A stretch of DNA of 16,051 nucleotides from NCBI GenBank assembly GCA_016219765.1, contig JACRKM010000077.1, positions 1 through 16,051 of the forward strand. The letters are read 5' to 3'. The notes beneath the pieces were generated by a model, which was not told the DNA's origin, ran no database searches, and saw only the letters and a list, made by a program, of their open reading frames with translations. Positions 209 to 15,974 of the stretch are shown in pieces; the stretch's first letter is position 1; each line of letters starts with the position of its first letter. Made by a program: the position numbers and the translations under genes. Source of the stretch: Candidatus Woesearchaeota archaeon (lineage in GTDB: Archaea > Nanobdellota > Nanobdellia > Woesearchaeales > UBA11576).

Positions 209-209
209 T

Positions 210-229: not shown

Positions 230-237
230 TTAACCAA

Positions 238-816: not shown

Positions 817-876
817 AGAGATAAAATAAAGTCCACTTTCATCATTCGACAGGTGTCACGCGCATCTATCCATAAA

Positions 877-915
877 TTATATAAACAAAATCAGGATGTA
901 TTTTCGCATGCGAAC
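877..915 (+). promoter_or_regulatory. TATA plus CGCATGCG module at the AlaX start
   Basis: TTATATAAACAAAA (877-890), 14 bases, then CGCATGCGAAC (905-915). This is the second copy of the module at 112-150. The TATA centre is about 27 bases before the ATG at 908, as expected for a leaderless message. Confidence 0.6.
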
Positions 916-2071: not shown

Positions 2072-2088
2072 TAATTTTCCATCATACT
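2072..2088. terminator. T-rich tail after AlaX
   Basis: After the AlaX stop the plus strand reads TAATTTTCC and soon enters the structured element at 2089. Archaeal termination often needs only a T-rich stretch; the run here is short, so this is a weak call. Confidence 0.2.
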
Positions 2089-2406
2089 GTATTTGTTTAG
2101 CTAATCACCCTCACAGCGCCGCCACCGACCTGCGAGCGAACGCCACGTTTGATGTGTGAACGTCTTGCTTGTAAGTGTGATGAGAAGCGTTTCGTTCTCT
2201 CATTCCTGCGCCGCCAGACATCCTTGCAGGGAAACCTGTCTGGCGGCGACGGACTGCGTAGGACATCTGACAGGGTTCCCTCAGGGATGTCAGATGTCCC
2301 AGGAATAATCATGATTTGTCACAAAAAACAAAGTCACATCAAGCAAATAACACGGGAAATGGCGAGCATCGCGGCGGCGCGGTGAGCATAAGAGCTAAAC
2401 AAATAC
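2089..2406. repeat. Structured inverted-repeat element (MITE-like or ncRNA)
   Basis: Perfect 14-base terminal inverted repeats GTATTTGTTTAGCT (2089-2102) and its complement (2393-2406) enclose a GC-rich, heavily folded stretch. Inside: CTCAC-GCGCCGCC arms (near 2110-2123 and 2373-2386), TTGATGTG (2149-2156) with CACATCAA (2335-2342), an 11-base hairpin CGCCGCCAGAC (2209-2219) with GTCTGGCGGCG (2238-2248) topped by CAGG-GAAA-CCTG, and a perfect 12-base stem GGACATCTGACA (2261-2272) with TGTCAGATGTCC (2288-2299). I see no target duplication and no SRP RNA or RNase P hallmark. It is either a non-autonomous mobile element or a structured RNA; the strand is unknown. Confidence 0.6.
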
Positions 2407-2411
2407 CGTTT

Positions 2412-2540
2412 TTATAGGTGCTTCCCTTTCAAGAACTGGCGAAATGCAATCAACCTGGCAATATAGAATAATGCTGGTATAAGAAGTAAAAGAATGACGA
2501 GCGTCACAAGGCGCTCATGCAGCCCATCAATAAAGCCCAT
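2412..2540 (-). CDS. Small single-pass membrane protein (42 residues)
   Basis: A short minus-strand frame from ATG at 2540 to TAA at 2412-2414 encodes 42 residues: a charged N-terminus (MGFIDGLHER), one strongly hydrophobic helix at about residues 11-33 (LVTLVILLLLIPALFYIARL) and a basic tail (RQFLKGKHL). A good ribosome binding site, GAGAGGT, lies 6 bases before the ATG on the minus strand, and TATA-like sequence occurs further upstream (2576-2585 or 2591-2600). Positive charges after the helix fit an N-out, C-in orientation. No family is recognised. It sits divergent to the membrane protein at 2678, sharing the AT-rich promoter region. Its size means gene callers may have missed it. Confidence 0.6.
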   Translation of the reverse strand: MGFIDGLHERLVTLVILLLLIPALFYIARLIAFRQFLKGKHL

Positions 2541-2644
2541 CTTTAACCTCTCTTGTTTCAATATTCTAATATCAACATTTATATGTCAATATTTATAAAT
2601 CTGCTGTCTGTTATCTTGCAGATTTTTGGAATATCACGGAACAT

Positions 2645-2654
2645 CATAAAATAA
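2645..2654 (+). promoter_or_regulatory. TATA-like promoter for the 2678 membrane gene
   Basis: CATAAAATAA is centred about 28 bases before the ATG at 2678, which points to a leaderless message. There is no ribosome binding site before that ATG. Confidence 0.4.
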
Positions 2655-2677
2655 GATTTTCTCGAATTTTCAGCGCT

Positions 2678-3370
2678 ATGGCGAAACAACGAAAGAAAAC
2701 AAAAAAAAGAAAACCAGTTAGAGAAAAATCGCACGGCACGCGCAATGTTCAGCCGCAAACTTTGGTTGAACAACCTGACAAGCAGATGCACGAACCGGGC
2801 CATAAAAAGAAACGCCAGTTTCTAGCACACGGGCCGCTGCGACACGCGAATCTCTTTAAAGCTGCTCACGTTACTTTCTGGTCATATCTTTTCATCTTCG
2901 CGATCTACCTTACCTTATCTTCCGTCGTGACAATCGATCTGAAACTCGCCAGCGCGGCCAATATCGCCTTTCACGTTCTTATCGCTGCTGCAAGCGGGTG
3001 GACTGCAATGCTATTGTCGCGCAAACTGCTCTCAGCGTGGAACACGCCCGCATATGCGATCACGCTCAATACACTGGGCGCTCTTGTCACACGCCGTCAG
3101 CAAACCTCAATCACCACTGCACTGCTCGTCTTGACGGCGCTTCTTCATGCACTCTACATTGCAGGGTCAGGTTCATACTACATCATGTTCCCGTTCATCG
3201 TTCCGCTCTTTCTCTATGCCAATCTCACATTCGCACTTACACCGCCCGAATTGGCAGCAGGTCCATTATCCTTTCTCCCTTCATTCTTCTCGCTCGTCCC
3301 GATCATTCTTCAAGTTGCTTATCTTGCACTCATTGCACGCATAGTGATGAATATTTACTCAAAAAGGTGA
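2678..3370 (+). CDS. Polytopic membrane protein with a basic N-terminal tail
   Basis: The 230-residue product begins with about 50 hydrophilic residues very rich in Lys and Arg. Then come hydrophobic segments at about 67-87, 93-113, 146-163, 168-188 and 202-224, plus a weaker one near 121-137, so five or six membrane helices. The basic tail should be cytoplasmic by the positive-inside rule and could touch nucleic acid or acidic lipid heads (inference). No transporter or enzyme motif is visible and I do not recognise the family. The ATG at 2678 follows a TATA-like sequence at 2645-2654. The next gene, at 3538, is separated by 167 bases with nothing obvious in it, so this is probably a single-gene unit. 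Confidence 0.8.
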   Translation: MAKQRKKTKKRKPVREKSHGTRNVQPQTLVEQPDKQMHEPGHKKKRQFLAHGPLRHANLFKAAHVTFWSYLFIFAIYLTLSSVVTIDLKLASAANIAFHVLIAAASGWTAMLLSRKLLSAWNTPAYAITLNTLGALVTRRQQTSITTALLVLTALLHALYIAGSGSYYIMFPFIVPLFLYANLTFALTPPELAAGPLSFLPSFFSLVPIILQVAYLALIARIVMNIYSKR

Positions 3371-3537
3371 AGATCAAGCGCCAGACCAATACTTTCATAA
3401 TGATAAGCGGGCTGTACGAATAATATCCCCATTATAATCCATAATCTTCTCAAATGCCCTTCTAATGCTTTTGTTTTTTCATATTGGACAAAAAAGCCAT
3501 CCATTCTTTTTTATGAACACGCGGCAGGCATATACAT

Positions 3538-3798
3538 ATGGCTTTTACGTTTCCAAAAAACACGATATACTATATCACGCGTGCAGTCAATGGGCTCGTC
3601 TGCACAGTTGGAGCAGGTTACGTTGCCTTCAGTATCTATGTATCACGCACTGACAGCGATCCACAGCTTTCCAAGAATGCATTCCTGTACGGAGCAGTCC
3701 TGATCGCGTCCACAATCCCCGCGCACCTATTTATCAAAAAAGACACGTCAAGCGCCCATAAGAAGGACAATGATTCCGATTTGGAAAGCAGACTCTGA
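3538..3798 (+). CDS. Small two-helix membrane protein, tandem paralogue A
   Basis: The 86-residue protein has two hydrophobic helices (about 13-34 and 47-67) followed by a charged hydrophilic tail. It aligns along its length with the next gene: both start MAF..PK, share Y.I..AVNG.V.T.G.G, an IY...TD turn between the helices, a Pro near the end of helix 2, and the C-terminal ending DLE-x-RL. This is a clear tandem duplication. I do not recognise the family. A TTTTTTATGAA stretch at about 3506-3516 could be the TATA box, implying a leaderless start at 3538. The second copy follows after 19 bases, so they are probably cotranscribed and may form a hetero-oligomer (inference). Confidence 0.75.
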   Translation: MAFTFPKNTIYYITRAVNGLVCTVGAGYVAFSIYVSRTDSDPQLSKNAFLYGAVLIASTIPAHLFIKKDTSSAHKKDNDSDLESRL

Positions 3799-3817
3799 CA
3801 GTTTAACGTTGATGTTA

Positions 3818-4111
3818 ATGGCCTTCCAACTCCCAAAACATTCTGCTCAGTACATCGTGTCCGCAGTCAACGGTATCGTATCCACGGCAGGTGTAGGATT
3901 GATCGCATATGGAATCTACAAGCGCAATACTGATCCAGAAAACTCACAAAATCTTATCCTACTTGGCGGCATGCTTATCGGCCTGCAGGGTCCTTACTAT
4001 TACTGGGCGTTAAAAGCGAGGAGAGATGAGAAAATAGATGAAAAAAAGGACGCAGCGAACAATCAAGATGGAAACGACAAGAATAATAAAGATTTAGAAG
4101 GCAGACTATAA
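3818..4111 (+). CDS. Small two-helix membrane protein, tandem paralogue B
   Basis: The 97-residue product is a diverged duplicate of the preceding gene. Two hydrophobic helices occupy about 12-34 and 46-66; the tail of about 30 residues is rich in Asp, Asn and Lys and ends DLEGRL, matching DLESRL in its paralogue. The start at 3818 is chosen because alignment with the upstream protein begins exactly at MAFQLPK; an earlier in-frame ATG at 3770 would overlap the upstream gene and adds sequence with no counterpart. No function is recognised. The stop is only 6 bases before the target duplication of a MITE insertion (4118-4126), so the element may affect transcript ending. Confidence 0.75.
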   Translation: MAFQLPKHSAQYIVSAVNGIVSTAGVGLIAYGIYKRNTDPENSQNLILLGGMLIGLQGPYYYWALKARRDEKIDEKKDAANNQDGNDKNNKDLEGRL

Positions 4112-4117
4112 TTATCT

Positions 4118-4345
4118 TCATTTATTGGCTCTGTAAAAAATATCACCGGCACGCTCACCACCACCGCCCATTTGCGAGAGATAGAAAGACACACGAACAC
4201 GCCGACAAGGGGGACGCCCCATCCGGGGAATGTCGGCAATCAAAGAACAGAGCACATATCACGAGCCCGGCGTGGTGGTGAGCGAGCGAGGCGTCGAGCC
4301 TCGCGGTGCCGGCTAATTAAGATTTTCTACAGAGCCTCATTTATT
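4118..4345. repeat. 9-base target duplication framing MITE copy 1
   Basis: TCATTTATT occurs at 4118-4126 directly before, and at 4337-4345 directly after, the inverted-repeat element 4127-4336. Perfect flanking direct repeats of this size are the footprint of transposition. Confidence 0.85.
4127..4336. mobile_element. MITE-like non-autonomous element, copy 1 (210 bases)
   Basis: Terminal inverted repeats GGCTCTGTA (4127-4135) and TACAGAGCC (4328-4336). Internal nested arms: CCGGCAC (4146-4152) with GTGCCGG (4306-4312); GCTCACCACCACCGCC (4153-4168) with GGCGTGGTGGTGAGC (4269-4283); GCCGACA (4201-4207) with TGTCGGC (4231-4237) capped by CCCC/GGGG; and hairpin GCGAGGC-GTCGA-GCCTCGC (4286-4304). 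It is very similar over its whole length to copy 2 at 12294-12501. There is no transposase gene; frames inside are shadows. The GG-CTGT-AAA ends and 8-9 base duplications resemble the IS6-type pattern, but that link is inference. Confidence 0.9.
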
Positions 4346-4393
4346 GGTTTTCTCATTCATTTGGCTGAATTTCAGTCAATTTAAACACAATTC

Positions 4394-4401
4394 TTATAAA
4401 T
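4394..4401 (+). promoter_or_regulatory. TATA-like box for the cation-transport operon
   Basis: TTATAAAT lies in the AT-rich stretch between the MITE and the operon. It would start transcription near 4423 and leave a leader of about 65 bases containing the GAGGTG ribosome binding site at 4479-4484. A second AT-rich candidate at 4451-4460 would start too close to that site. Confidence 0.35.
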
Positions 4402-4489
4402 TAAAATTTCCTTTTAATTTCAAAAAGAGGTAGAGCGCTGCTTCTTTTCAGTATATTTACAACATTTACAATAGTAACGAGGTGTTTGT

Positions 4490-5062
4490 ATGGGCCAAAA
4501 TATCAAAGAGAACATTCTCCAGATGAAAAACGTGTCTGAGCTGATGCTCGACCTGGCATACTCTGCCATCTTACTTGGCGATGAGCGAATTACGCGCGAA
4601 GTCGAGTCTCTTTTTGAGAAGATTAAGCTGCTTGAGGAAGAGACTGTCAGATATGTCTTTCGCATCAAAGAAGCTGACGAGAAACGGATCTTGCTGCTTG
4701 ACATGATCGACCACGTCAAAGACATCTCAATAGCTGCACGACACATTGCGCTGCTTGCCAAACGCGGCAAGGACTTTCCTTCCGTCATCAAGGACGTACT
4801 CAAAGATTCTGACGAACGCGTTGTCGCAGAACGTGTCAACCCGGCATCTACCCTTGGCAATACCACTGTTGGAACACTCAAACTACGAACGCATGTGGGA
4901 ATCAGAGTTATTGCGGTCCAGCGGCGAGACATGTGGTACTTTGGAATTAGCCGTGAATTCAGCCTGGCTCCGGGAGACATTATCGTCGCAGTCTGCTCTG
5001 CACACGCAGAAGTTATCCTGCGGGAACTTGCGGCTGGAAAGCGTAAACTTCCCACAGTGTAA
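4490..5062 (+). CDS. PhoU-like / TrkA_C regulatory protein of a cation transporter
   Basis: The 190-residue cytoplasmic protein combines an N-terminal all-helical PhoU-like bundle (about 5-95) with a C-terminal RCK/TrkA_C ligand-binding domain (about 110-185; GIRVIAVQR followed by LAPGDIIVAV is the typical beta-strand pattern). This is the layout of the archaeal group described as having PhoU and TrkA_C domains (COG3273), commonly encoded beside MgtE-like permeases. It probably senses an ion or nucleotide and gates the two permease halves encoded next. The ATG at 4490 follows a strong GAGGTG site at 4479-4484, which fixes the start. The next gene begins 25 bases after the stop. Domain assignment is from pattern recognition; the ligand is unknown. 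Confidence 0.85.
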   Translation: MGQNIKENILQMKNVSELMLDLAYSAILLGDERITREVESLFEKIKLLEEETVRYVFRIKEADEKRILLLDMIDHVKDISIAARHIALLAKRGKDFPSVIKDVLKDSDERVVAERVNPASTLGNTTVGTLKLRTHVGIRVIAVQRRDMWYFGISREFSLAPGDIIVAVCSAHAEVILRELAAGKRKLPTV

Positions 5063-5087
5063 CTGAATCTCTCCTTTTCTTGTTCCC

Positions 5088-5630
5088 ATGGCTTTCGACA
5101 AAGATAGCAAAGAAATCGCCATCGGCCAGATCGTCACGGTAACCGGCGGGCTGCTTGCAGGAGGCGCACTCGCTTTCTACACAGACAAGATCGCACTAAT
5201 TCCCGGCATTTTTGTATTACTTCCGGGATTCCTTGATATGCGGGGAGATGTGGTGGGAAGCCTTGCAGCACGGCTTTCTTCAGAACTGCACATCGGAAGC
5301 ATTGACATCGCAAAACAAAAAAGACAAGGCATCAGGGATGGAGTCGTGGCAGCATTTCTTCTCTCATTGGCTGCCAGCGTTATCTTGGGTCTCGTGGCTT
5401 ATGCAGCTTCATACTTCATCTTTAAGATAAACAATCCTGACATTATCTGGGTGGCCATCATTGCAACTATCGTTTCAAACCTTATCTTGATCCCTTTAAC
5501 CGTAAAAAGCACGGTCTGGTTCTTCGCGCATGGTTACGACCCTGATAACGTGATGGGCCCGTATATAACCGTCGTTGGAGATGTCGCCGCAATCGTCTCA
5601 TTATTAATTGCTATTGTCATAGTAACGTGA
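5088..5630 (+). CDS. MgtE/SLC41-like divalent cation permease, half 1
   Basis: The 180-residue membrane protein matches one membrane half of the MgtE/SLC41 family (COG1824 type), which moves Mg2+ or similar ions. Family signatures: the loop LLPGFLDMRGD (about 44-54), corresponding to the MgtE pore-lining PG..D/N region, and DPDNVMGPYITVVGDVAAI (151-169), the DP....P..T...D signature where acidic residues bind metal. Hydrophobic segments lie at about 13-30, 37-50, 85-113, 118-140 and 155-178. There is no N-domain or CBS domain as in bacterial MgtE; regulation is probably by the upstream PhoU/TrkA_C protein. The stop is 6 bases from the next start, so the operon is tight. Ion specificity cannot be read from the sequence. 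Confidence 0.88.
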   Translation: MAFDKDSKEIAIGQIVTVTGGLLAGGALAFYTDKIALIPGIFVLLPGFLDMRGDVVGSLAARLSSELHIGSIDIAKQKRQGIRDGVVAAFLLSLAASVILGLVAYAASYFIFKINNPDIIWVAIIATIVSNLILIPLTVKSTVWFFAHGYDPDNVMGPYITVVGDVAAIVSLLIAIVIVT

Positions 5631-5636
5631 TAATCA

Positions 5637-6233
5637 ATGCGATCTGCAATATCGTTTAAAAGATTTAGCATGAATAAAACAGTGTTAACAATCTTTCGGG
5701 AAACGTTCAGCGTCATGATCATCTCAAACATCATCAGTTCCTTGGGAGGGCTGGCGCTCCATTCAGTAGAGAAAAAACTTCTCATCTTGCTCCCCATACT
5801 AATAATCGTGCCAGGACTCAACGCGCTCATTGGAGGCTTTGCCTCGATCGTATGCTCTAAATTTACGACGATGCTCTACCTGGGCGAATTTCCAGAAGGC
5901 AAATGGTGGCAGTCACATAACTTCAAGGCGCTATTTTCTAAAGTCATGGTCGCAGCGTTAATCTCATCGATGTACCTTGCGATCCTCGCATTTGTCATCG
6001 CTATATTGCGCGGATTCCGTTTTAACCCGCCATTGTTCATCAAAATCACGTTCATGACGATCATCTCAACGCTGATCTTGGTGGCGCTGCTGCTCCTTTT
6101 TTCTATCGTGACGGGGCTTTACATCTATCATAAAAAACACGATCCTAATAGTTACCTTATCCCGCTTGTAACATCAATCGCGGATGTTGCGACCATGGCG
6201 CTCTTTAGTGTTCTACTGCAATTCTTCTTCTGA
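5637..6233 (+). CDS. MgtE/SLC41-like divalent cation permease, half 2
   Basis: The 198-residue membrane protein is homologous in layout to the preceding gene. The loop IVPGLNALIGGFAS (57-70) matches the PG region and KHDPNSYLIPLVTSIADVATM (167-187) matches the DP....P..TS..D signature. Hydrophobic segments lie at about 25-40, 47-62, 102-125, 134-163 and 172-195. Together the two halves would make the pseudo-symmetric pore that is a single chain in eukaryotic SLC41 or a homodimer in bacterial MgtE. Several residues differ between halves (LNALIGG versus LDMRGDV), so they likely have distinct roles in a heterodimer. The start at 5637 is 6 bases after the previous stop; an internal ATG at 5670 is an alternative. 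Confidence 0.87.
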   Translation: MRSAISFKRFSMNKTVLTIFRETFSVMIISNIISSLGGLALHSVEKKLLILLPILIIVPGLNALIGGFASIVCSKFTTMLYLGEFPEGKWWQSHNFKALFSKVMVAALISSMYLAILAFVIAILRGFRFNPPLFIKITFMTIISTLILVALLLLFSIVTGLYIYHKKHDPNSYLIPLVTSIADVATMALFSVLLQFFF

Positions 6234-6292
6234 TGCTTGATTCTGATTCATTCTTGAAGAGTGGCGAACGCCTTTCCATCACTTTGAGCTTT

Positions 6293-6365
6293 CATTGTAA
6301 TGGCTCTATAGAAAATAGTGCCGGCACGACCAGTCGGTAGGTTTTCAATAACGTCCCATTGTAAC
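6293..6365. mobile_element. Internally deleted MITE copy 3 with flanking duplication
   Basis: GGCTCTATAGAAAATAGTGC at 6302 and on to CCGGCACG at about 6329 matches the left end of the MITE family with about two changes. The core is lost; a 55-base remnant (6302-6356) ends in ACGTCC, whose complement begins GGACGT. It is framed by CATTGTAAT (6293-6301) and CATTGTAAC (6357-6365), an 8/9 match target duplication. It lies immediately upstream of the glutaredoxin promoter. Confidence 0.7.
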
Positions 6366-6378
6366 AAAAGATTTAAAT
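6365..6378 (+). promoter_or_regulatory. BRE/TATA promoter of the glutaredoxin gene
   Basis: ACAAAAG followed by ATTTAAAT (6371-6378). The predicted transcription start near 6400 gives a leader of about 45 bases that includes the GAGGTG site at 6435-6440. Confidence 0.5.
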
Positions 6379-6444
6379 TGATAGAATCAATGAACATCAG
6401 GATCCCAAGCAATGCTCAAGATTAACGAATCAAAGAGGTGTTAT

Positions 6445-6765
6445 ATGCCAAAAAGCAAAAGTTCGTCATCCAAGACGCCGGCAAGCAAAAGCCCCGCAGG
6501 ACAGACTTCTAAATACCCCCACGTTAAAGTCTACTCGACCCCAACGTGCCCATACTGCCACATGGCAAAAGATTACCTTAAAGCAAACAACGTGCCATTT
6601 GAGGACATTAACGTAGCGGCCGATGAAAAAGCTGCCGATGAAATGCAGAAAAAAACCGGGCAACTCGGCGTTCCCGTCATCGAGATCGGCAATACTATAA
6701 TCGTCGGGTTTGACAAAGATGCGATCAATGAAGCACTCAAGCTCAAACCCAAAGCCGCATCCTGA
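6445..6765 (+). CDS. Glutaredoxin-family thiol-disulfide protein
   Basis: The 106-residue protein is a single thioredoxin-fold domain of the glutaredoxin/NrdH type. It reduces disulfides or mixed thiols in the cytoplasm. The active site CPYC follows YSTPT (about residues 32-40 from this start), and the cis-proline motif GVPVIEIG lies near 77-84, then a GFD turn and a short C-terminal helix. The first 25 residues are a Ser/Lys-rich low-complexity tail not typical of the family. The ATG at 6445 is chosen because GAGGTG at 6435-6440 lies 4 bases upstream; the in-frame ATG at 6412 would place this site inside the gene. The electron donor is unknown. The next gene, 85 bases downstream, has its own ribosome binding site. 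Confidence 0.92.
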   Translation: MPKSKSSSSKTPASKSPAGQTSKYPHVKVYSTPTCPYCHMAKDYLKANNVPFEDINVAADEKAADEMQKKTGQLGVPVIEIGNTIIVGFDKDAINEALKLKPKAAS

Positions 6766-6850
6766 CGTTACAGCAGCGAGTTCAATAAACTGATCCAATC
6801 CACACGGCCATCGCGAAGAAGAAAACTCCGCGTGAACAGAGGTGACAAAT

Positions 6851-7246
6851 ATGCCTAAACTCGAACTAAAACAACCCAAACAAAACATCGCAATCCTCGG
6901 CGCATCACGCGACCGCAGCAAGTACAGCAACAAAGCAGTACGAGCGTATTCCAGCAAAGGCTACGGGGTGTATCCGGTCAATCCCAACGCTCAACAGATT
7001 GAAGAGCTTACGTGCTATCCCAAACTCAAAGACGTTCCAGTCAAACTTGACATCGTGAGCGTGTATGTTCCGCCAGCAGTCGGGTTGACGCTTGTCGAAG
7101 ACATCGTGCGGGTCGGTCCAAAGATTGTATATCTCAACCCGGGCGCCGAGTCACAGGAGTTCGTCAAGATGCTGCGTGCACGCGGAATCAGGCCCATGAT
7201 GGCATGCAGTATACTCGCTATTGGAGTAGATCCTGCAAAACTTTGA
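6851..7246 (+). CDS. CoA-binding Rossmann-fold protein (YccU-like)
   Basis: The 131-residue single-domain protein belongs to the CoA_binding_2 group (COG1832). The N-terminal nucleotide-binding turn is AILGASRDRSKYSNKAVR, followed by the characteristic YSSKGYGVYPVNPN strand and DVPVKLDIVSVYVPP; the tail has the NPGAES turn. Relatives are the CoA-binding subdomain of ADP-forming acyl-CoA synthetases, but a stand-alone copy has no ligase domain. It may bind CoA or be involved in CoA-thiol modification; the role is not established. The ATG at 6851 follows a GAGGTG site at 6839-6844; a GTG at 6842 overlaps that site and is rejected. The neighbouring glutaredoxin hints at thiol chemistry, as inference only. 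Confidence 0.9.
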   Translation: MPKLELKQPKQNIAILGASRDRSKYSNKAVRAYSSKGYGVYPVNPNAQQIEELTCYPKLKDVPVKLDIVSVYVPPAVGLTLVEDIVRVGPKIVYLNPGAESQEFVKMLRARGIRPMMACSILAIGVDPAKL

Positions 7247-7259
7247 AGAGCTTGTTTAG

Positions 7260-7315
7260 TTATCAGTATTTTTTATTTATTGGTATTATTTATTATCAAT
7301 AATTTGTTATCAATA
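7260..7315. repeat. Three TTATCARTA repeats before the GTPase gene
   Basis: TTATCAGTA (7260-7268), TTATCAATA (7293-7301) and TTATCAATA (7307-7315) occur in one AT-rich spacer. Starts are 33 and 14 bases apart. They may be binding sites for a regulator of the downstream GTPase and carbamoyltransferase genes, or chance in AT-rich DNA. TATA-like TTTATTTATT overlaps the same stretch. Confidence 0.35.
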
Positions 7316-7326
7316 CGATTTTCAGC

Positions 7327-8727
7327 GTGATTCGTGTGTTTCAAAAAAAAGATACATTCAGCGGCGATGCCGGCAAGAGGGCTGAGCCTGTCTCGGCCAT
7401 CATCATGGGCGCCGCAGGACGAGACTTTCATGATTTCAACACACACTTTCGTAATAATCCGCGTGAACGGGTTGTCTGTTTTACCGCTACACAAATCCCA
7501 AACATCGAAGGCCGACGGTATCCGGCTGAACTCGCAGGACCCCACTATCCAACCGGCATTCCGATCTATGCAGAAAAAGAGCTGCCTTCTCTGATTAAGA
7601 AATACCGCGTCGATACCATCTACCTTTCCTACAGCGATCTCTCACACATAGACGTAATGCACAAAGCGTCAACAGTGCTGGCAAGCGGCGCAAACTTTGC
7701 AATTCTTGGGCCAAGGTCGGCATTCCTGCATGCCGCTGTTCCTGTGATTGCAGTGTGCGCAGTCAGAACAGGAAGCGGAAAAAGCCAAACTTCACGCTAC
7801 GTTGCGAAATACTACAAAAACCAAGGAGCGCGCGTTGTTGTGTTGCGCCACCCGATGCCATACGGGGACCTGCGTAAACAAGCGGTGCAGCGATTTGCTA
7901 CGTATGCTGATCTCGACGCTCACAAATGCACGATAGAAGAACGCGAAGAATATGAACCCCACATCGCAAACGGCATAGTTGTCTACGCGGGCATCGACTA
8001 CCAGAGAATCCTGGACCTTGCCGAACGAGAAGCAGACATCATCATCTGGGATGGGGGCAACAATGATATTCCCTTCATCAAACCAAACCTGCACATCGTC
8101 GTCGTCGACCCGCATCGCGCAGGCCATGAAATCAAATTCCACCCCGGCGAAACGAATTTTCGCATGGCGGACGTCCTCATCATCAATAAGATCGACTCGG
8201 CACAAGAACACGAAGTCAAAGTGGTCGAGAAGAACATCAAGCTGTACAACCCTGATGCTGTTGTCATTAAGGCAGAGTCCCTGCTTTGCATCGATTCACC
8301 ACAACGCATCACAGGAGCGCGCGTGCTCGTCATCGAGGATGGGCCCACGCTCACGCACGGAGGCATGACGTATGGCGCAGGCATGCTCGCAGCAAAACGC
8401 CATCGCGCGAGCGAGATCGTCGACGCTCAAAAATACGCCGCGGGAAGCATCAAGGACGTCTATAAAAAATACCCTGCACTGCATAAAATATTGCCTGCAA
8501 TGGGGTATGGCAAAGCGCAAGTTGCAGATCTTGAAAAAACAATCAATCGTGCTAAGTGTGACATTGTAGTAGACGCGAGCCCGGTGGATATATCACGCAT
8601 TCTCAAAGTCAACAAACCAGTAGTCAGCGTCCGTTACGAACTTGCCGAGGTTGGAAATCCAAAACTGCCGAAGATCCTCTCAAGAATCAAAATCAAACGA
8701 CAAAGTGCTCATTTAGGCATTCATTGA
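7327..8727 (+). CDS. GTPase related to cyclic 2,3-diphosphoglycerate synthetase
   Basis: The 466-residue protein matches the archaeal family of cyclic 2,3-diphosphoglycerate synthetase and predicted GTPases (COG2403). An N-terminal Rossmann-like domain (about 20-135; IIMGAAGRDFHDF) precedes a P-loop NTPase domain: VRTGSGKS (146-153) is the Walker A motif, IIIWDGGNND (238-247) the Walker B-like strand, HPGE (272-275) a conserved loop and INKID (286-290) the NKxD base-recognition motif. The family includes the enzyme that cyclises 2,3-diphosphoglycerate in Methanothermus, but many members, including those near carbamoyltransferase genes, have no proven substrate. GTG at 7327 is the start used because no upstream ATG is in frame. 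The carbamoyltransferase gene starts 9 bases after the stop, so they form one transcript and probably one pathway. Confidence 0.9.
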   Translation: MIRVFQKKDTFSGDAGKRAEPVSAIIMGAAGRDFHDFNTHFRNNPRERVVCFTATQIPNIEGRRYPAELAGPHYPTGIPIYAEKELPSLIKKYRVDTIYLSYSDLSHIDVMHKASTVLASGANFAILGPRSAFLHAAVPVIAVCAVRTGSGKSQTSRYVAKYYKNQGARVVVLRHPMPYGDLRKQAVQRFATYADLDAHKCTIEEREEYEPHIANGIVVYAGIDYQRILDLAEREADIIIWDGGNNDIPFIKPNLHIVVVDPHRAGHEIKFHPGETNFRMADVLIINKIDSAQEHEVKVVEKNIKLYNPDAVVIKAESLLCIDSPQRITGARVLVIEDGPTLTHGGMTYGAGMLAAKRHRASEIVDAQKYAAGSIKDVYKKYPALHKILPAMGYGKAQVADLEKTINRAKCDIVVDASPVDISRILKVNKPVVSVRYELAEVGNPKLPKILSRIKIKRQSAHLGIH

Positions 8728-8736
8728 ACTTGTGTA

Positions 8737-9687
8737 ATGGGCATCATCATGTTATCTACGAAAGACTTCCTTTCTATTGCAGACCTCAGCTCGCACGAGC
8801 TCTCTGACCTTATCTCATTCTCAGTCCGCATCAAACGCAAGCCGCGACGGTACCGACGAGCCCTTGCAGGAAAGAATCTGCTCACGCTCTTTGCAAAACC
8901 ATCGCTGCGCACGCGACTCTCGTTTGAAGTCGGCATGCAGCAACTCGGAGGCCATGCCATCTACTATTCAATTGAAGAATCGACACTCGGGCATAAAGAG
9001 ACTATCAGTGACTTTGCAAATACAGCATCCAGATATGTTGACGCTATCATGGCACGATTGTACTCACACAAAGAATTGCTGTCACTTGCAAAGCATTCCT
9101 CGGTGCCTGTGATCAATGGGCTGACAGACTTTTCCCATCCCTGCCAGGCACTTGCTGATGCAGTAACGATGCTCGAGCGAAAAAAGAAACTTGCAGGACT
9201 CAAGCTTGCTTATTTTGGGGACGGAAAGAACAACACCTGCCATTCGTTGCTCGAAGCGTGCGCAAAACTTGGAATCCATATGACCATCGCCGCCCCAAAA
9301 CACCACGAATTTCAGCCAGACCACACAGTTCTTGACACGGCGAAAACTGAAGCCCTCAGAAATCACTGCATGATAAATGTTACTACAGATGCGCATTCCG
9401 CAGCAGCGAACGCAGATGTTCTCTACACCGACGCCTGGATGAGCTACCACGTAAGTACAAGAGAACACGCGCGGCGTCGAAAGGCGCTTAAGCACTATCA
9501 AGTTAATGAAGAACTGCTGTCCCTTGCTGCGAAAGATGCAATCTTTATGCACTGCCTGCCGGCCAAGCGAGGCGAGGAAGTCACAAGCGAAGTCATTGAT
9601 GGCCCGCAGAGTGCGGTGTTTGACCAGGCAGAAAACCGTCTGCATGCACAAAAGGCGCTCTTGATACGCTTGCTCAAAGAGGGGTGA
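8737..9687 (+). CDS. Ornithine carbamoyltransferase family protein, altered substrate loop
   Basis: The 316-residue protein has the carbamoyltransferase signatures: carbamoyl-phosphate site SLRTR (56-60) within KPSLRTRLSFE, HPCQALAD (134-141), GDGKNN (161-166) and catalytic HCLP (272-275). These place it with ornithine-type rather than aspartate-type enzymes, which transfer carbamoyl phosphate to ornithine to make citrulline, or the reverse in fermentative use. The usual substrate loop D-x-W-x-S-M-G reads DAWMSYH (232-238): the Ser remains but Met and Gly are replaced, followed by a very basic run (THEHARRRK-like, about 241-249). The preferred amine may therefore differ from ornithine. A second ATG at 8749 (MLSTKDFL) matches typical family starts and may be the true one. 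Upstream is the COG2403 GTPase; a small membrane protein follows after 4 bases. Confidence 0.9.
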   Translation: MGIIMLSTKDFLSIADLSSHELSDLISFSVRIKRKPRRYRRALAGKNLLTLFAKPSLRTRLSFEVGMQQLGGHAIYYSIEESTLGHKETISDFANTASRYVDAIMARLYSHKELLSLAKHSSVPVINGLTDFSHPCQALADAVTMLERKKKLAGLKLAYFGDGKNNTCHSLLEACAKLGIHMTIAAPKHHEFQPDHTVLDTAKTEALRNHCMINVTTDAHSAAANADVLYTDAWMSYHVSTREHARRRKALKHYQVNEELLSLAAKDAIFMHCLPAKRGEEVTSEVIDGPQSAVFDQAENRLHAQKALLIRLLKEG

Positions 9688-9691
9688 AAAA

Positions 9692-9928
9692 ATGATCGGA
9701 GATCTAGACCGCAGGATGCGGCGTGCGGGAGTAGCCATGGCAGCAGGCCTTGGCCTCATCATCAGCTCATTCGCCCTCACGATAATCGCGGCTAGCGGCG
9801 TAGCCTCGAACTCTATAAGCCCACAAGCATTACTATGGACGCGTGAATTATATCCTTTAGGAATCGGACTGATACTGCTTGGAATAGGGATGAAGCTGCA
9901 CTGTATTGTTTCGGCGGTCAATAAATAA
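9692..9928 (+). CDS. Small two-helix membrane protein
   Basis: The 78-residue product has a short basic N-terminus (DRRMRRAG), a hydrophobic helix at about 13-37, an outside loop, and a second helix at about 55-73. Both ends are predicted inside. A strong GAGGGGTGA site overlaps the end of the carbamoyltransferase gene just before the ATG at 9692, so the gene is translated as part of that operon. I do not recognise the family; Gly-rich helices (GLGLI, GIGLILLGIGMK) suggest tight helix packing. Its place suggests a link to the carbamoyltransferase but the sequence gives no direct evidence. Confidence 0.75.
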   Translation: MIGDLDRRMRRAGVAMAAGLGLIISSFALTIIAASGVASNSISPQALLWTRELYPLGIGLILLGIGMKLHCIVSAVNK

Positions 9929-9959
9929 AAAATGAAACCTAAAAAAGAAGAGAAAAGAT

Positions 9960-10771
9960 TTATTTGTATAATTTCTGAGCTTCAGTTTCGAATGCGTCCA
10001 TGCCTTCTTTAGAAACATGTTCTCTTCCTAATGCAAGAACTTGTTCTAAACTTGGTGCGACGATTACACTTCCGTTAGAAGGTGTGCTATTTTTCGCGCG
10101 ACCTGCGCCTCCGGCGCTTCTACCCCGACCAGCCGGCCGCTGTCGCCGTAGGAGTCGAGGCCGAGGTTGCCGTCGGCACCGCCGAAGTAGCCGACAGCCC
10201 AAAGACACCAAAGCCGCATGGTCTCCTTTTCTTGTGGAGAAGCAACGAAAACGCCCATTGCAGTATCGTAACCTAATTCTTTCGCTCGTGCGAAAGCAGC
10301 AGTATCATATTCAGCAAGTAAGGTTTTATCTCCGCGCGCTAATGCAACCCAGACTGGATTATTAACGGATTCTCCTTTATTATACCATTTGCTTACGTAT
10401 TGTGCGAGCTGGTCTTTGCCGAATTGTTCTCCTTGTAAACCTGCGTAGGTTCCTTGTGGAAGAACGAGAGCACCATTGTGTAATTCGCTTTTAGAAGTTA
10501 GTTCTCGTAACGGTTGAGCGTCAAGAACAACTTTCATATTTCCTTGAGTATCGTACGCTGGAGCGTCTCCTGTGTCAAAGTAGTGGTTCCACCAAGAATC
10601 TTTTACTTCTTTGGAAACATTGCTATTAAGAACTTCAAGTCTTCGTTGCATCAAACCTGCAACAGACAGAGGAACTCTTCCTTCTTTTATCAAAAGGGGC
10701 ATTTGTTCAGTATTTTTGCCTTCAAATGCTTTGTATGGTTGAACTTGTTCGTTTAAGATTAGATTGCTCAT
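9960..10771 (-). CDS. Unrecognised protein, broken by a one-base frameshift
   Basis: Read from ATG at 10771, an open frame runs about 235 codons to a stop at 10064-10066. A second frame continues the coding pattern (NSTPSNGSVIVAPSLEQVLALG) to a stop at 9960-9962. Adding one A to the run of five at 10090-10094 joins them smoothly into 270 residues, so one base is missing here, by mutation or sequencing error. The start is set by GGAGG (10780-10784) 8 bases upstream; an ATG at 10786 overlaps that site. The protein is soluble, rich in Gln and Gly, with WWNHYFDTGDAPAYDT, LPQGTYAGLQ and a GGADGNLGLDSYGDSG stretch. I recognise no family. Residues about 191-225 are encoded by a strikingly GC-rich patch (75% over 10095-10200, hand count) in an otherwise about 42% GC gene. 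Confidence 0.75.
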
Positions 10772-10813
10772 GTGTATGGCCTCCAATTAAGTTACCATTT
10801 GAAATGGGCTTTT

Positions 10814-10828
10814 CTTCATAAAGCTTTC
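10814..10828 (-). promoter_or_regulatory. Candidate promoter of the frameshifted gene
   Basis: On the minus strand GAAAGCTTTATGAAG has a BRE-like purine run joined to TTTATG. Initiation about 25 bases on, near 10795, would leave a short leader with the GGAGG site at 10780-10784. Other AT-rich candidates lie at 10850-10860. Confidence 0.3.
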
Positions 10829-10913
10829 TGTTATTACTGCTTACAAGTGTAAATAAAGAAATAACTGGATTATACTACATTTTGCTGCCTTTCGACCTTT
10901 TGTATCGTTATTC

Positions 10914-10925
10914 TTTTATAATAAG
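10914..10925 (+). promoter_or_regulatory. TATA box of the glycosyltransferase gene
   Basis: TTTTATAATAAG is centred about 25 bases before the ATG at 10943, and no ribosome binding site is present, so the message is probably leaderless. Confidence 0.5.
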
Positions 10926-10942
10926 ACTTCTTCCGTTCACTC

Positions 10943-11668
10943 ATGCAACGACCACGCGTCCTCATTGGCTGCGTCACATGCGACCAGGATGAACAATTCC
11001 TTGATCAATTCATGGAAGCCGCGCACGCACAAGACAACAAGAACTTCGACGTCCTCTTTGTCGATAATTCTGTACGCGATGCCTATTTTGAGCGCCTGAA
11101 AAGGACTGGCGCACGCTGTATTCGCGACGCTGCAGGAGGGATCACCATCGTTAAAATCACGCGCGGGCGCAACACGATCAGGGAGTATGCGCTGGCCCAC
11201 GACTATGATTATCTCCTTTTCGTCGACACCGATATTGTACTGCCGCCATTTGCCCTTTCACGACTGCTCTTTCAACACAAAGACATAATCTGCGGCGTAT
11301 ACTTATCAGAAGTCAATTATGAAGGATACAAGATCATCGCACCAATCCTATTCGATTTTGGTGATGAAGAAAGCGGACGCATCTACAACATCGGCGGAGT
11401 ACTGCGTGAACGCGTCACAGAGATCGCAGCAAGCGGATTTGGGTGCATGCTGCTCTCAGCCAAGGTGCTCAAGGACATCAAGTATCGGTACAACCCGGCC
11501 ATTGATTCGGGAGAAGACATCATGTTCTGCCTCGATGCGCGGACAAAAGGATATAAAATCTACTGCGACACATCAGTCAAGTGCGACCATTATGGGTACC
11601 CGGTAGGAGATAAACGAAATGACAAGCAACTGTGGAAGACCTATCTGCCTGCTTCATCAAATCCATAA
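10943..11668 (+). CDS. GT-A fold glycosyltransferase (family 2-like)
   Basis: The 241-residue protein has a GT-A type fold: an N-terminal strand RVLIGCVTCDQ, FDVLFVDNS (35-43), then the metal- and sugar-nucleotide-binding DTD (95-97) in LLFVDTDIVLPP. A GFGCMLLSAKVL segment (165-176) and the acidic GED (190-192), a candidate catalytic base, with H216 in CDHYGYP, complete the pattern. It would transfer a sugar from a nucleotide donor onto a lipid, protein or glycan; the acceptor is not visible. There is no membrane segment, so it is cytoplasmic or peripheral. The length is short for a family 2 enzyme but complete. The copper lipoprotein gene follows after 16 bases and may be cotranscribed, though no functional link is evident. 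Confidence 0.85.
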   Translation: MQRPRVLIGCVTCDQDEQFLDQFMEAAHAQDNKNFDVLFVDNSVRDAYFERLKRTGARCIRDAAGGITIVKITRGRNTIREYALAHDYDYLLFVDTDIVLPPFALSRLLFQHKDIICGVYLSEVNYEGYKIIAPILFDFGDEESGRIYNIGGVLRERVTEIAASGFGCMLLSAKVLKDIKYRYNPAIDSGEDIMFCLDARTKGYKIYCDTSVKCDHYGYPVGDKRNDKQLWKTYLPASSNP

Positions 11669-11684
11669 GAATGAGTGATGCAAT

Positions 11685-12254
11685 GTGAGAAAACTGTTCG
11701 CTGTTGTGCTGCTCTCTTTGTTTGTACTTCTTGTTGCCTGCACACGTGCTCAAGAACCTTCTCGAGATCTACAGCAGGTATCTACTCCACCTTCTCCTGC
11801 ACCCGCGCCTGCAGCTGTATCATCTGCTCCTTCCCAAGAGGTTGAACCTGTCAGTGCTCAACACGCCCAACCGCTGTCACAGCCAGCAGATGAGCTTATA
11901 CAACCTGCTAAGAGCTCTGCGCCGTCACCTGTGGCGAAATCAAAATTCGAACACGCAAGCGAACCGGTAGTCGAGCAGATCAAGAAATTCAATATAATCG
12001 CCAAGCAGTGGGCGTGGGTTCCAGATACAATAACTGTGAACCTCGGGGACGAGGTCGAACTCAATATCACCAGCCAAGACGTGCCGCACGGATTCTACCT
12101 GCCAGACTTTGGTGTTAGCCAGCATCTCGGTCGAGGAGAAAGTGCAACCGTGAAATTCACTGCAGACAAAGCCGGAACATTTGGATTTTCGTGTAACGTG
12201 TACTGCGGCGCTGGACATGGCGATATGGTTGGAAAGCTAGTAGTGAACCCGTAA
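11685..12254 (+). CDS. Membrane-anchored lipoprotein with a CuA cupredoxin domain
   Basis: The 189-residue protein begins with a lipoprotein signal peptide (RK, hydrophobic core 4-16) and lipobox LVAC with C19 as the lipidated residue. A Pro/Ala/Ser/Gln-rich linker (about 20-90) leads to a cupredoxin domain (about 98-189). Copper ligands match the binuclear CuA site of cytochrome oxidase subunit II: H135 (DVPHGF), then C170, C174, H178 and M181 in CNVYCGAGHGDM. QWAW (108-111) matches the conserved QWYW segment of that subunit. The two-helix membrane hairpin of true subunit II is absent. It is probably an extracellular electron carrier or copper-binding protein. GTG at 11685 is the only sensible start; GAGTGATG at about 11672 can pair with the ribosome. 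No oxidase or other copper enzyme gene is in the window. Confidence 0.9.
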   Translation: MRKLFAVVLLSLFVLLVACTRAQEPSRDLQQVSTPPSPAPAPAAVSSAPSQEVEPVSAQHAQPLSQPADELIQPAKSSAPSPVAKSKFEHASEPVVEQIKKFNIIAKQWAWVPDTITVNLGDEVELNITSQDVPHGFYLPDFGVSQHLGRGESATVKFTADKAGTFGFSCNVYCGAGHGDMVGKLVVNP

Positions 12255-12284
12255 GAATCTTTTCTATTCTTATATTAACTTTGT

Positions 12285-12510
12285 GAAAGCTATGGCGCTG
12301 TAGAAAATAGTGCCGGCACGCTCACCACCACCGCCTTTCCGCGAGAGATAGACTGAAACACAGCGACGCCGACAAGGGGGATGCCCCATCGGGGAATGTC
12401 GGCCATGAAAAGACGCTGACATATCACGAGCTTGGCGTGGTGGTGAGCGAGCAAGGCGTCGAGCCTTGCGGTGCCGGCTCGTCAAGACTTTCTACAGAGC
12501 CAAAAGCTAT
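12285..12510. repeat. Target duplication framing MITE copy 2
   Basis: GAAAGCTAT (12285-12293) and AAAAGCTAT (12502-12510) directly flank the element, matching at 8 of 9 bases. The right copy contains the stop codon of the aldehyde dehydrogenase gene (12507-12509, minus strand). Confidence 0.8.
12294..12501. mobile_element. MITE-like non-autonomous element, copy 2 (208 bases)
   Basis: Ends GGCGCTGTAG and CTACAGAGCC. It has the same nested arms as copy 1: CCGGCAC (12313-12319), GCTCACCACCACCGCC (12320-12335) with GGCGTGGTGGTGAGC (12434-12448), GCCGACA (12368-12374) with TGTCGGC (12397-12403), and hairpin GCAAGGC-GTCGA-GCCTTGC (12451-12469). Orientation matches copy 1. It sits between convergent genes, where it could fold as a hairpin in both transcripts and act as a terminator (inference). 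Confidence 0.9.
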
Positions 12511-13988
12511 TTAAGAACTTTCACCACATCGATCTGCGCCCTCTGCAGCCTTTCTGAGAAATCGACATAAACTGCCTTCACTTCGGAGAATTCATTGATG
12601 CCTTCGATCCCCGCTTCACGCGCACCGTTTCCGGTGCTCTTCACTCCGCCAAAAGGCAGATGCACTTCGGCACCGATCGTGCTTGCGTTGACATACATCA
12701 CGCCGGACTCCATCTTCTCAATTGCCTTGAACGCACTATTGATATTTTGCGTATAGATTGAAGCAGAAAGTCCGTACTCGATCCCGTTTGCTACGTCGAT
12801 CGCTTCGTCCAGATTGTCAACGGGAATGAGCGAGAGAACCGGACCAAAGATCTCTTCTTGCGCGATACGCATCAACGGCTTCACGTTTGTGAATACCGTC
12901 GGATGATAGAAGCATCCCTTCATCTTCGGTCGACTACCGCCGCACAACAGCACAGCGCCCTCGTTTTTTCCTATCGCAACATAGCGGTGGCTCTTCTCTA
13001 CCGCCGCCTCGTTGATCAGGGGACCGACATCGGTATCTTTCCCAAGCCCATTTCCCAATCGCAACCTTCGGACACGATCAAGCAACATCTGCTCGAAGCG
13101 ACGCTGCAACGAGCGATGGATAATGACTCTGCTTGTTGCAGTGCAACGTTGTCCAGTGGTACCGAACGCGCCCCACAAGACTCCCTCGAGCGCAAGATCA
13201 AGATTCGCATCGTCCATAATGATGATGGCGTTCTTGCCGCCCATCTCGAGACCTACTTTCTTGATCCCTGCATTCTGCAGGAGGTATTTTCCCGCATCCT
13301 TGTGGCCGGTAAACGATAGCCCCCGAATCTTCGGGTGCTTGATGATCGCACTGCCGACGCTGTCGCCAGGTCCGGTCACCATGTTCACCACGCCAGCAGG
13401 GACTCCTGCCTTGCCCATCAATTTCACGAGCTCGGCTGCGCACAACGGAGTATCGGAAGATGGCTTGAGCACGAGCGTATTGCCACAGATCAACGCTGCA
13501 GACATTTTCCACGCAGGAATCGCGATGGGAAAATTCCATGGCGTGATAAGACCGACAATACCGATCGGGCGACGCACAGTCATGCAAAACTTGTTTTGCA
13601 GTTCAGAAGGGGTCGTGTGCCCAAACAGACGACGGCCTTCGCCAGCCATGTACTCAAACACATCGATTGCTTCCTGCACATCGCCAAGTCCTTCGGAAAG
13701 GACCTTGCCCATCTCTGTCGTGACGAGCTTTCCAAAGCGCTGCTTGTTTTTCTTCAAGAGATCGCGAATCTTAAAAAGAATCTCGGCACGATGCGGCGCG
13801 GGCACTTCACTCCAGAGCGGAAATGCTTTCTCAGCAGCCGACACTGCACGCTCTACATCCTCTTCATTGCCCTTCTGAAAGATCCCAAGCGTCTGCGACG
13901 GCTTTGCCGGATTATAACTCTTAAACGTCTTGCCAGAAGAAGACCGTACCCACTTTCCGTCAATAAAATTGCCCCAGACGCGAAGCAT
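12507..13988 (-). CDS. NAD(P)-dependent aldehyde dehydrogenase
   Basis: The 493-residue cytoplasmic enzyme oxidises an aldehyde to a carboxylate with NAD(P). All catalytic parts are present: the PWNF motif with the oxyanion Asn (about N152), the general base Glu in LEMGGKN (about E248), the nucleophile Cys in GTTGQRCTATSR (about C282), and EEIFGPVL. The GQRCTATSR form is usual in semialdehyde dehydrogenases such as those for 2-oxoglutarate semialdehyde or succinate semialdehyde. The true substrate cannot be set from sequence. The start at 13988 (MLRVWGNFIDGKW) agrees with the family's N-terminus and follows a GGGTG site; ATGs at 14009 and 14024 lie upstream and 14009 could serve a leaderless message from the TATA at 14026-14040. 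The stop codon lies inside the target duplication of MITE copy 2. Confidence 0.93.
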   Translation of the reverse strand: MLRVWGNFIDGKWVRSSSGKTFKSYNPAKPSQTLGIFQKGNEEDVERAVSAAEKAFPLWSEVPAPHRAEILFKIRDLLKKNKQRFGKLVTTEMGKVLSEGLGDVQEAIDVFEYMAGEGRRLFGHTTPSELQNKFCMTVRRPIGIVGLITPWNFPIAIPAWKMSAALICGNTLVLKPSSDTPLCAAELVKLMGKAGVPAGVVNMVTGPGDSVGSAIIKHPKIRGLSFTGHKDAGKYLLQNAGIKKVGLEMGGKNAIIIMDDANLDLALEGVLWGAFGTTGQRCTATSRVIIHRSLQRRFEQMLLDRVRRLRLGNGLGKDTDVGPLINEAAVEKSHRYVAIGKNEGAVLLCGGSRPKMKGCFYHPTVFTNVKPLMRIAQEEIFGPVLSLIPVDNLDEAIDVANGIEYGLSASIYTQNINSAFKAIEKMESGVMYVNASTIGAEVHLPFGGVKSTGNGAREAGIEGINEFSEVKAVYVDFSERLQRAQIDVVKVLK

Positions 13989-14025
13989 CAGATACACCCT
14001 TTTTTGCATAGATAGCGGCGTCAAG

Positions 14026-14040
14026 CTTTAAATATCTTTT
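14026..14040. promoter_or_regulatory. Shared TATA-like region of the divergent pair
   Basis: AGCTTTAAATATCTT holds a near-symmetric TTTAAATA core. On the minus strand it lies about 25 bases before 14007 and can serve the dehydrogenase gene. On the plus strand it would start a leader of about 65-70 bases for the oxidase gene at 14130. One box may serve both directions. Confidence 0.4.
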
Positions 14041-14100
14041 GGGTTTGTCTTGGCTGTACTCACTTTTACGTCCAAATCCCCCTCAGGACGACGACCATCA

Positions 14101-14144
14101 TCAAACCATGACAGAAGCTATCTCAAACCATGACCGAAGCTATC
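14101..14144 (+). repeat. 22-base tandem duplication over the oxidase start codon
   Basis: TCAAACCATGACAGAAGCTATC (14101-14122 in one unit) is repeated at 14123-14144 with a single A-to-C change. Each unit carries an ATG (14108, 14130). As 22 is not a multiple of three, the first ATG opens a short out-of-frame reading frame. Confidence 0.85.
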
Positions 14145-15341: not shown

Positions 15342-15393
15342 CCTTGCAGGTATTTTCGCTCGCGCATTTTTAGGTTTTGTAGAACAGAACGCG

Positions 15394-15405
15394 TGCCACG
15401 TGGCA
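15394..15405. other. Perfect 12-base palindrome between convergent genes
   Basis: TGCCACGTGGCA sits between the ends of the oxidase gene (15341) and the minus-strand gene (15408). It could be a hairpin in a two-way terminator; there is no T-run directly after it, so this is weak. Confidence 0.25.
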
Positions 15406-15407
15406 TC

Positions 15408-15944: not shown

Positions 15945-15974
15945 CGTATGTGGTCTTGCGCACTCCGCGCTTAC

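Follow-up and report, generated by a model that had tools for sequence, protein, structure and literature searches.

Small transposase-free mobile elements of a Woesearchaeales archaeon: candidate IS5 partners, spacing to TATA motifs and a conserved core

Elements of the window and of the host genome

We examined a stretch of 16,051 nucleotides from Candidatus Woesearchaeota archaeon (order Woesearchaeales; GenBank assembly GCA_016219765.1, contig JACRKM010000077.1, positions 1 to 16,051), referred to below as the window, which carries two short elements with matched inverted ends. An earlier note, made from the sequence alone, had described them as a mobile family with 8-9-base target duplications and no transposase in the window, and had likened them to IS6-type insertion sequences (ISs). 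The description of a transposase-free mobile family with duplications stood, and the IS6 assignment did not. Both copies were located exactly at 4127-4336 and 12294-12501, with termini that read GGCTCTGTAAAAAAT ... TACAGAGCC in copy 1 and GGCGCTGTAGAAAAT ... TACAGAGCC in copy 2, and with the flanking repeats as claimed. Overlooked were a predicted folded core, the swapping of ends, a constant spacing to TATA motifs and a third, chimeric member at 6302-6356. The features of the window are as follows.

4118..4126: left target duplication of copy 1, TCATTTATT
4127..4336, + strand: copy 1, type A element of 210 bases, ends GGCTCTGTAAAAAAT / GGCTCTGTAGAAAAT
4157..4291, + strand: core of copy 1 (predicted fold), covariance model R1, 60.3 bits
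4337..4345: right target duplication of copy 1, TCATTTATT, a perfect match to the left one
6293..6301: left target duplication of the mini element, CATTGTAAT
6302..6356, + strand: chimeric mini element of 55 bases, left end of type A and right end of type D, core lost
6357..6365: right target duplication of the mini element, CATTGTAAC
6372..6379, + strand: TATA-like motif TTTAAATT, its start at 15 nt from the mini-element edge (duplication of 9 plus AAAAGA)
6412-6765: glutaredoxin-like open reading frame (ORF; named by reading), downstream of the TATA-like motif at 6372..6379
12271..12278, - strand: TATA-like motif TTAATATA, directed away from copy 2, its start at 15 nt from the left edge of that element
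12285..12293: left target duplication of copy 2, GAAAGCTAT, present once in the empty site of a same-genus genome
12294..12501, + strand: copy 2, type A element of 208 bases
12324..12456, + strand: core of copy 2 (predicted fold), covariance model R1, 45.9 bits
12502..12510: right target duplication of copy 2, AAAAGCTAT, one mismatch to the left one
2089..2406: type C element with ends GTATTTGTTTAGCT, from a different element family of this genome that served as control; no duplication visible here

No transposase was recognised among the window ORFs on reading them (no comparison with a family library was made), in agreement with the note; ORFs inside the copies did not exceed 71 aa, and no tRNA was found in the window.

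The host genome (G000; the window is its contig C32) is a draft of 1,086,044 bases in 178 contigs, 81% complete. With the 210-base copy as query, further copies appeared as 67 aligned pieces (81 candidates, 40 scored), the weakest of which (E 0.69) were single end repeats. The A-end pattern occurred 29 + 27 times, and the reversed control pattern 0 + 0 times. Element types were assigned by end patterns on fetched loci. Twenty elements of 207-509 bases had both A ends, and all except C15:1129-1604 (19/20) were framed by a 9-base duplication at one mismatch or less, so that the duplication size of 8-9 bases given by the note narrows to 9 for type A. The two D-ended elements (GGCGTTATTGAAAAC) both had perfect 8-base duplications, as did four of the six C-ended rows (GTATTTGTTTAGCT), two of these four lying inside A copies, at an identical AGATTTTC. 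For the eleven B-ended rows (GGTTGGTGCGAAA) duplications were discernible by eye only (9-12 bases, offset 0-4 nt; 3-7 mismatches at exact edges). The A, B and D elements share one core, with additional hairpin-rich inserts inside it in the longer A copies, and chimeras of their ends occur: A-left/B-right at C30:1207-1429, without duplication, and A-left/D-right in the same-genus genome G001 (L189, duplication GGTCGCTTA by eye). Since contigs C17, C22, C36, C118, C124, C126 and C143 break off inside type A elements, the true copy number must be higher. The elements are thus short (210 and 208 bases in the window), transposase-free and multicopy, with terminal inverted repeats and target duplications, as in miniature inverted-repeat transposable elements (MITEs). 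In other genomes, 40 elements of at most 200 bases were found among 85 motif matches, and 30 of the 40 had a perfect duplication, a count made without a shuffled control. The type C family, for which no partner transposase was identified, had 36 + 40 exact ends in the host and 37 + 46 in G001, with 8-base duplications.

The note's claim of real transposition was borne out by an empty site for copy 2 in G001. The joined flanks with a single GAAAGCTAT aligned gaplessly to contig C256 of that genome over 316 bases (80% identity, the first 31 bases identical); the join lies only 18 bases into the alignment, as G001 is interrupted further to the left by an island of 3.5 kb. No match to the joined flanks of copy 1 was found in nine genomes of the family. 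The copies are mobile, transposase-free elements, and neither of the note's refuting conditions held, given this empty site, the further copies and the DDE-transposase elements with matching ends described below. The island itself (L344, G001:C256:5950-9600, about 3.5 kb) has ORFs that read like restriction-modification genes (TSPPYN methylase motif) and is bordered by TAACTTTG repeats and a C-type end.

Candidate partner transposases

The note had proposed to look for a full IS that combines such ends with a DDE transposase. Elements of this kind exist in the genus and the order (as contig-end pieces in G001, and in G055 and G017). In G017 we found an IS of 1019 bases (L202) with ends GGCTAATATGAAACCC and a perfect 9-base duplication; MITEs L122 and L149, from another genome, bear the same ends. 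In G055 both an IS (L205/L259) and a core-bearing MITE (L245) have ends like those of the window copies, the L205 transposase being flanked by GGCTCTGTAGAAAA / GGCTCAGTAGAAAA. The end GGCTCTGACGAAAAT occurs on an IS tail (L133) as well as on MITEs L089, L112 and L159 of the same metagenome-assembled genome records. In four contig-end pieces of G001, the end GGCTCTGTAGAAAAT precedes the C-terminal part of a DDE transposase; the longest piece has 79.8% identity over 84 aa to the L205 transposase. Altogether, ends of this kind were present at 17 of 30 related-transposase loci (883-1019 bases), 12 of them with a duplication at one mismatch or less, and they cover the same range of forms as those of the MITEs, e.g. 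GGCTCTGTCCTAAAT and GGCCGCGATGAAAAT. The related transposase was found in 59 of 287 genomes of the order.

The family assignment of these partners follows from their scores: 52.1 and 45.0 bits for PF01609, whose cut-off of 23 both L202 and L205 exceed, and 145 bits for L202 with NF033579 (NCBIfam; cut-off 140), which points to IS5-type DDE transposases, presumably of the IS903-like subgroup with 9-base duplications. With their DDE_Tnp_1 transposase, a length of 883-1019 bases, matched ends and mostly 9-base duplications, the partners resemble the IS5 family in general. Some observations weigh against this partnership: L205 reached only 120.4 bits with NF033579, under the cut-off, 13 of the 30 transposase loci lacked such ends, and no IS5 transposase was found in the host itself (81% complete). 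The C-terminal piece of G001 was also below the NF033579 cut-off. A working partner is likewise absent in places for the MITEs of H. walsbyi, as one report describes (PMC3119063). The matched ends and the duplications nevertheless indicate that IS5 transposases of the relatives act in trans, so that enzymes with the same terminal repeats and 9-base duplications would move the copies. Terminal repeats, duplications, lack of a transposase, multiple copies and trans mobilisation by a same-ended IS are shared with other prokaryotic MITEs (Correia, ERIC, haloarchaeal).

The IS6-type source preferred by the note has the GG start and the 8-9-base duplications in its favour, features which do resemble these elements. 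The host genome had no match to PF13610, PF12762 or PF01609, and none of 13 loci fetched for PF13610/PF12762 in relatives (L071-L083) had a flanking end pair with a duplication, while the cognate elements score as IS5; we therefore find an IS6 origin very hard to credit, and IS6 and IS1595 were both rejected as partners. Two of the fetched loci, L072 (G025) and L073 (G001), from two families of the order, contain a gene for a SWIM-like plus DDE (PF13610) transposase adjoining a RelA/SpoT-like gene (names by reading, except PF13610). Is this a domesticated gene or a two-gene element? At L056 (G001:C210), the DNA adjoining a core element resembles an IS630-type transposase end (LPPCSPELNPIEQYW), again named by reading.

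Spacing to TATA motifs

The flanks of 62 elements with defined ends (124 sides) were compared by position. The motif YTTAWA started at +15 on 23 sides and at +17 on 11, while most other offsets had 0-3 sides; 46 of the 124 sides had it at +8 to about +18, and an A-rich stretch separates the duplication from the TATA. In a strict test, with the motif 5-9 nt beyond the duplication on either side and random positions of the same flanks as control, it was present in 30/40 core MITEs (control 1.7%), 10/18 host A copies (0.9%) and 15/17 IS5 elements (1.8%), i.e. in 55/75 IS5-ended elements against 0.9-1.8% of random flank positions. The 40 core MITEs include L120 and L131, which have other ends (one of the two matches); without them the count is 29/38. 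D elements gave 1/2 and B elements 2/10 (control 0.7%). A looser TATA pattern matched 37/40 core MITEs, 12/18 A, 17/17 IS5, 2/2 D and 5/10 B elements. As control family, C-ended elements from this genus and family gave 1/25 strict and 2/25 loose matches (33 were found, of which 2 nested ones and 6 with worse duplications were omitted; L120 is seemingly L051 of this set, a miss in both). Fisher's test for the TATA spacing gave p = 4e-10. Among elements from genome contigs the motif was on the left side in 19 and on the right in 16. Inward TATA motifs also numbered 36 in the 10-19 bin, partly since TTTAAA is a palindrome. Within the window, the mini element fits the spacing exactly and copy 2 fits under the loose pattern.

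These counts indicate that IS5-ended elements sit at a fixed distance from TATA motifs, as would be expected of a promoter-targeted, Ty3-like mode of insertion. Several points stand on the other side. Copy 1 is a miss, with only a weak TTATAG at +15 by eye; the strict motif is absent from 20 of the 75 elements; the loose pattern was composed after the flanks had been inspected; and type B fits less well (2/10 strict, 5/10 loose, with uncertain edges).

Such a spacing could also arise by survivorship, if insertion occurred anywhere and only copies upstream of promoters were tolerated in a compact genome. The elements are indeed mostly intergenic (of 45 positions, 38 had a neighbouring ORF on both sides, two lay inside an ORF and five at a contig edge), and both the transcription factor B (TFB) recognition element (BRE) and the TATA box stay intact. 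Selection alone, however, predicts a step, and the observed distribution is a peak at +15/+17; in this genus and family, type C elements persist elsewhere (1/25 at the spacing); and copy 2 lies between convergent ORFs with its TATA motif directed into the 3ʹ end of one of them. We thus regard survivorship as improbable and favour insertion at a chosen site. The transposase complex would insert with its duplication directly upstream of the A-rich stretch and the TATA box, in either orientation, the 9-base stagger ending about 6 nt upstream of the TATA, where TFB presumably meets the BRE. It may read the promoter DNA itself or bound TFB together with the TATA-binding protein (TBP). The survival of BRE and TATA suggests that insertion is mild.

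The orthologous mini-element promoter in G001 was considered as an empty site and rejected, as a different IS5-ended element is present there (TTCATTGTA / TTCATTGTG, by eye), shifted by 2 nt, as if the promoter had been hit twice, independently. We also noticed in G001 (L345, C256:1-560) tandem units of about 255 bases, with another IS5-ended element (GGCTCTGTCCCGAAT), upstream of the glutaredoxin-like gene.

Our searches of the open-access PubMed Central literature turned up no account of IS5 elements inserting at a constant distance from TATA boxes in archaea, and the constant spacing to BRE-TATA (15/17 elements) sets the partners apart from the IS5 family as reported. A closer likeness is to Ty3 and other Pol III-targeting retrotransposons, which likewise insert at a defined position immediately upstream of promoters bound by TBP; according to one study (PMC8632968), the intasome of Ty3 makes contact with TBP. 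Unlike Ty3, the present elements are prokaryotic DDE transposons at archaeal Pol II-like promoters, and contact with TBP/TFB is putative. The fixed spacing suggests that harmless promoter-edge targeting evolved in archaea as well, where the promoter proteins involved would be homologous to those used by Ty3.

The conserved core

Between the ends of the elements lies a conserved core of about 134 nt. Covariance model R1 found it in 92 of 287 genomes and 72 of 193 genera of the order; as no more than 11 candidates were scored per genome, core copy numbers are lower bounds. In a phylum sample that included members of the order, 46 of 237 genomes had the core, all 46 within the order. A pattern scan of 84,980 species' genomes returned 83 stretches, and all 80 matches listed have archaeal titles (Woesearchaeota, Nanoarchaeota/Nanoarchaeia or 'archaeon'); viral contigs had no exact match of the 31-base pattern. 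The core also occurs under other ends, namely C ends (L120, L125), TAATACTTCAGC (L143, L155) and GAGTTTGTCGATTAAT (L131), which suggests that it matters to something beyond one transposase. In other prokaryotic MITEs the interior is usually said to be unrelated and free; here it is more conserved than the ends, apparently folded, order-wide and present under several unrelated ends. Elements with TAATACTTCAGC ends, L143 1550-1799 and L155 7601-7854, contain two cores in opposite orientation.

The predicted layout of one strand comprises stem H1, an asymmetric loop, H2 with tandem G.A pairs, H3 with purine-pyrimidine-purine tracts at its tip, and a mini-hairpin, H4, with tandem G.A as its closing pairs. 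From a pattern scan and BLAST we built alignments A1 (38 elements) and A2 (30); the 31-base search pattern fixed most motif bases, so the invariance of the motif in counts at this stage is partly by construction. RNAalifold returned 35 pairs, 23 of them changed on both sides. With a hand-written structure, 86.7% of the A2 cells pair against 70.9% in shuffled alignments, 143 cells change on both sides against 44.5, and covariation is 0.445 against 0.168 (0/500 shuffles in each case); slid structures gave at most 40.4% pairing. In 76 distinct contexts, three pairs outside the motif were Watson-Crick in 93, 100 and 88% of cases against 44-45% shuffled. A fifth measure on A2, further pair types, went against the structure (37 against 41.2 shuffled, 482/500). 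A K-turn reading of H2 was dropped, as by eye it did not fit the canonical form. Overall, the covariation indicates a conserved structure.

The apical motif was compared in 163 distinct core matches found by the covariance model, from the sets A3 and A4 (A4 being 60 hand-chosen hits from the order and phylum lists plus 10 earlier loci). Of these, 131 motifs have length 31 (87 with the exact pattern), and the 32 of other lengths were excluded from the triple count; among the latter, L370 and L372 agree with the triples and L048 and L353 disagree. Numbered from G0 of GACA, and in counts that ignore the kinship of lineages, positions 5/14/24 were G-C-G in 116 motifs, A-T-A in 13 (from G013, G043, G070, G100, G141, G154, G170, G176, G194, G266 and G280), GTG in one and AGC in one; positions 6/15/23 were G-C-G in 120, A-T-A in 10 and GCT in one; and positions 7/16/22 were G-C-G in 129, with two exceptions. 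Pairs 14-24 and 15-23 form an antiparallel hairpin, whereas 5 and 6 track the pyrimidine strand in parallel. As the motif is unpaired in the covariance model, the triple covariation was not imposed by it. An alternative apical hairpin of the first G tract with the C tract, chosen by RNAalifold, was dropped because it leaves the co-varying pairs unexplained; 5-14 and 6-15 run parallel, for which it cannot account. The three-way covariation at 5/14/24 and 6/15/23 appears in the parallel third-strand register of purine-motif triplexes, with their G*G.C and A*A.T triads, and we infer that the apical tracts form a triple helix, an apparent three-stranded DNA knot. H-DNA has the same triads and mirror-repeat purine tracts around a pyrimidine tract; unlike in H-DNA, the putative triplex has 3-4 triads in one strand, within a hairpin, and is kept by three-way covariation in a mobile element.

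Could the arms have been matched by mutation alone? Palindrome-correcting template switches would do so without selection, and the almost perfectly Watson-Crick arms with few wobble pairs are what they would leave. But they yield inverted repeats rather than mirror-repeat triples, and they explain neither the conserved asymmetric loop nor H4. The latter reads CGAGC-loop-GCGAG, with tandem G.A in 28 of 32 scored rows and T.A/A.T or T.A/T.A in the other four (6 of 38 rows scored below the cut, and the scoring gave G...A loops an advantage of 0.6 in about 10). By this exchange the G.A positions act like base pairs, and do so on one strand only. Template switching therefore seems a poor candidate.

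Whether the fold is one of DNA or RNA was weighed on base-pair composition. H1 had 9 G-T and 8 A-C among 933 cells, equally rare, and H3 had 8 G-T and 19 A-C among 697; in 19 tRNAs of these loci there were 9 G-T and no A-C among 228 (Fisher p 0.0007 for stems against tRNAs). The H4 loops (n = 32) were GNA in 8, GNNA in 16 and others in 8. GNA-loop mini-hairpins are exceptionally stable in DNA, and the purine-motif triplex generally excludes RNA. We conclude with moderate confidence, from these patterns, that the core is probably a folded DNA strand. A structured RNA that works once transcribed (roles as regulator, terminator or processing site have been proposed for certain bacterial MITEs) would suit the strand-specific features and the tandem G.A, and also H2, which at 21 G-T to 3 A-C favours RNA or a single strand and so counts against DNA. 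In addition, transcripts of MITEs are known to fold, as stated in an earlier study (PMC10969869). H1 and H3 do not follow H2, as G-T is no commoner than A-C in the first and rarer in the second, unlike in tRNAs; only 4 of the 16 GNNA loops are GNRA; and the G-C-G/A-T-A triples suit a purine-motif triplex. Rfam gave no core match (window at gathering score; seven loci at E<=5), the sole matches in the seven loci being tRNA-type, in L110 and outside the core, and a known structured RNA was rejected. An RNA role is thus unlikely, if less so than the rivals above.

As a whole, the best explanation, which we consider quite probable, is that the copies are MITEs moved by IS5 transposases, inserted at promoter edges and carrying a folded core. 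The core is most likely a DNA fold that aids persistence or movement, e.g. by serving as a binding site or by acting in single-stranded form during replication. Our leading guesses for its benefit are a host factor that binds the structure, or activation of the element coupled to replication. More tentatively, and with less than even confidence, we propose that a single-strand DNA fold with a purine-motif triplex is handed on among transposons whose ends are unrelated, throughout an archaeal order, and is carried by IS5 transposases that, like Ty3 in yeast, dock on promoters with bound TBP-TFB or on the TATA itself. If true, this would amount to a natural DNA triplex tested by evolution and to a prokaryotic transposon tethered to promoters. 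The three-way-substituted base triples offer a direct way to ask whether DNA triplexes serve a biological purpose, and the core provides a means of tracing mobile elements in uncultured DPANN archaea. No account of the core was found in the open-access literature, consistent with the note's remark that such elements are little described in DPANN-type archaea.

Elsewhere in the window, positions 14101-14144 hold a near-perfect 22-base tandem duplication (TCAAACCATGACMGAAGCTATC) across the start of the ORF at 14130.

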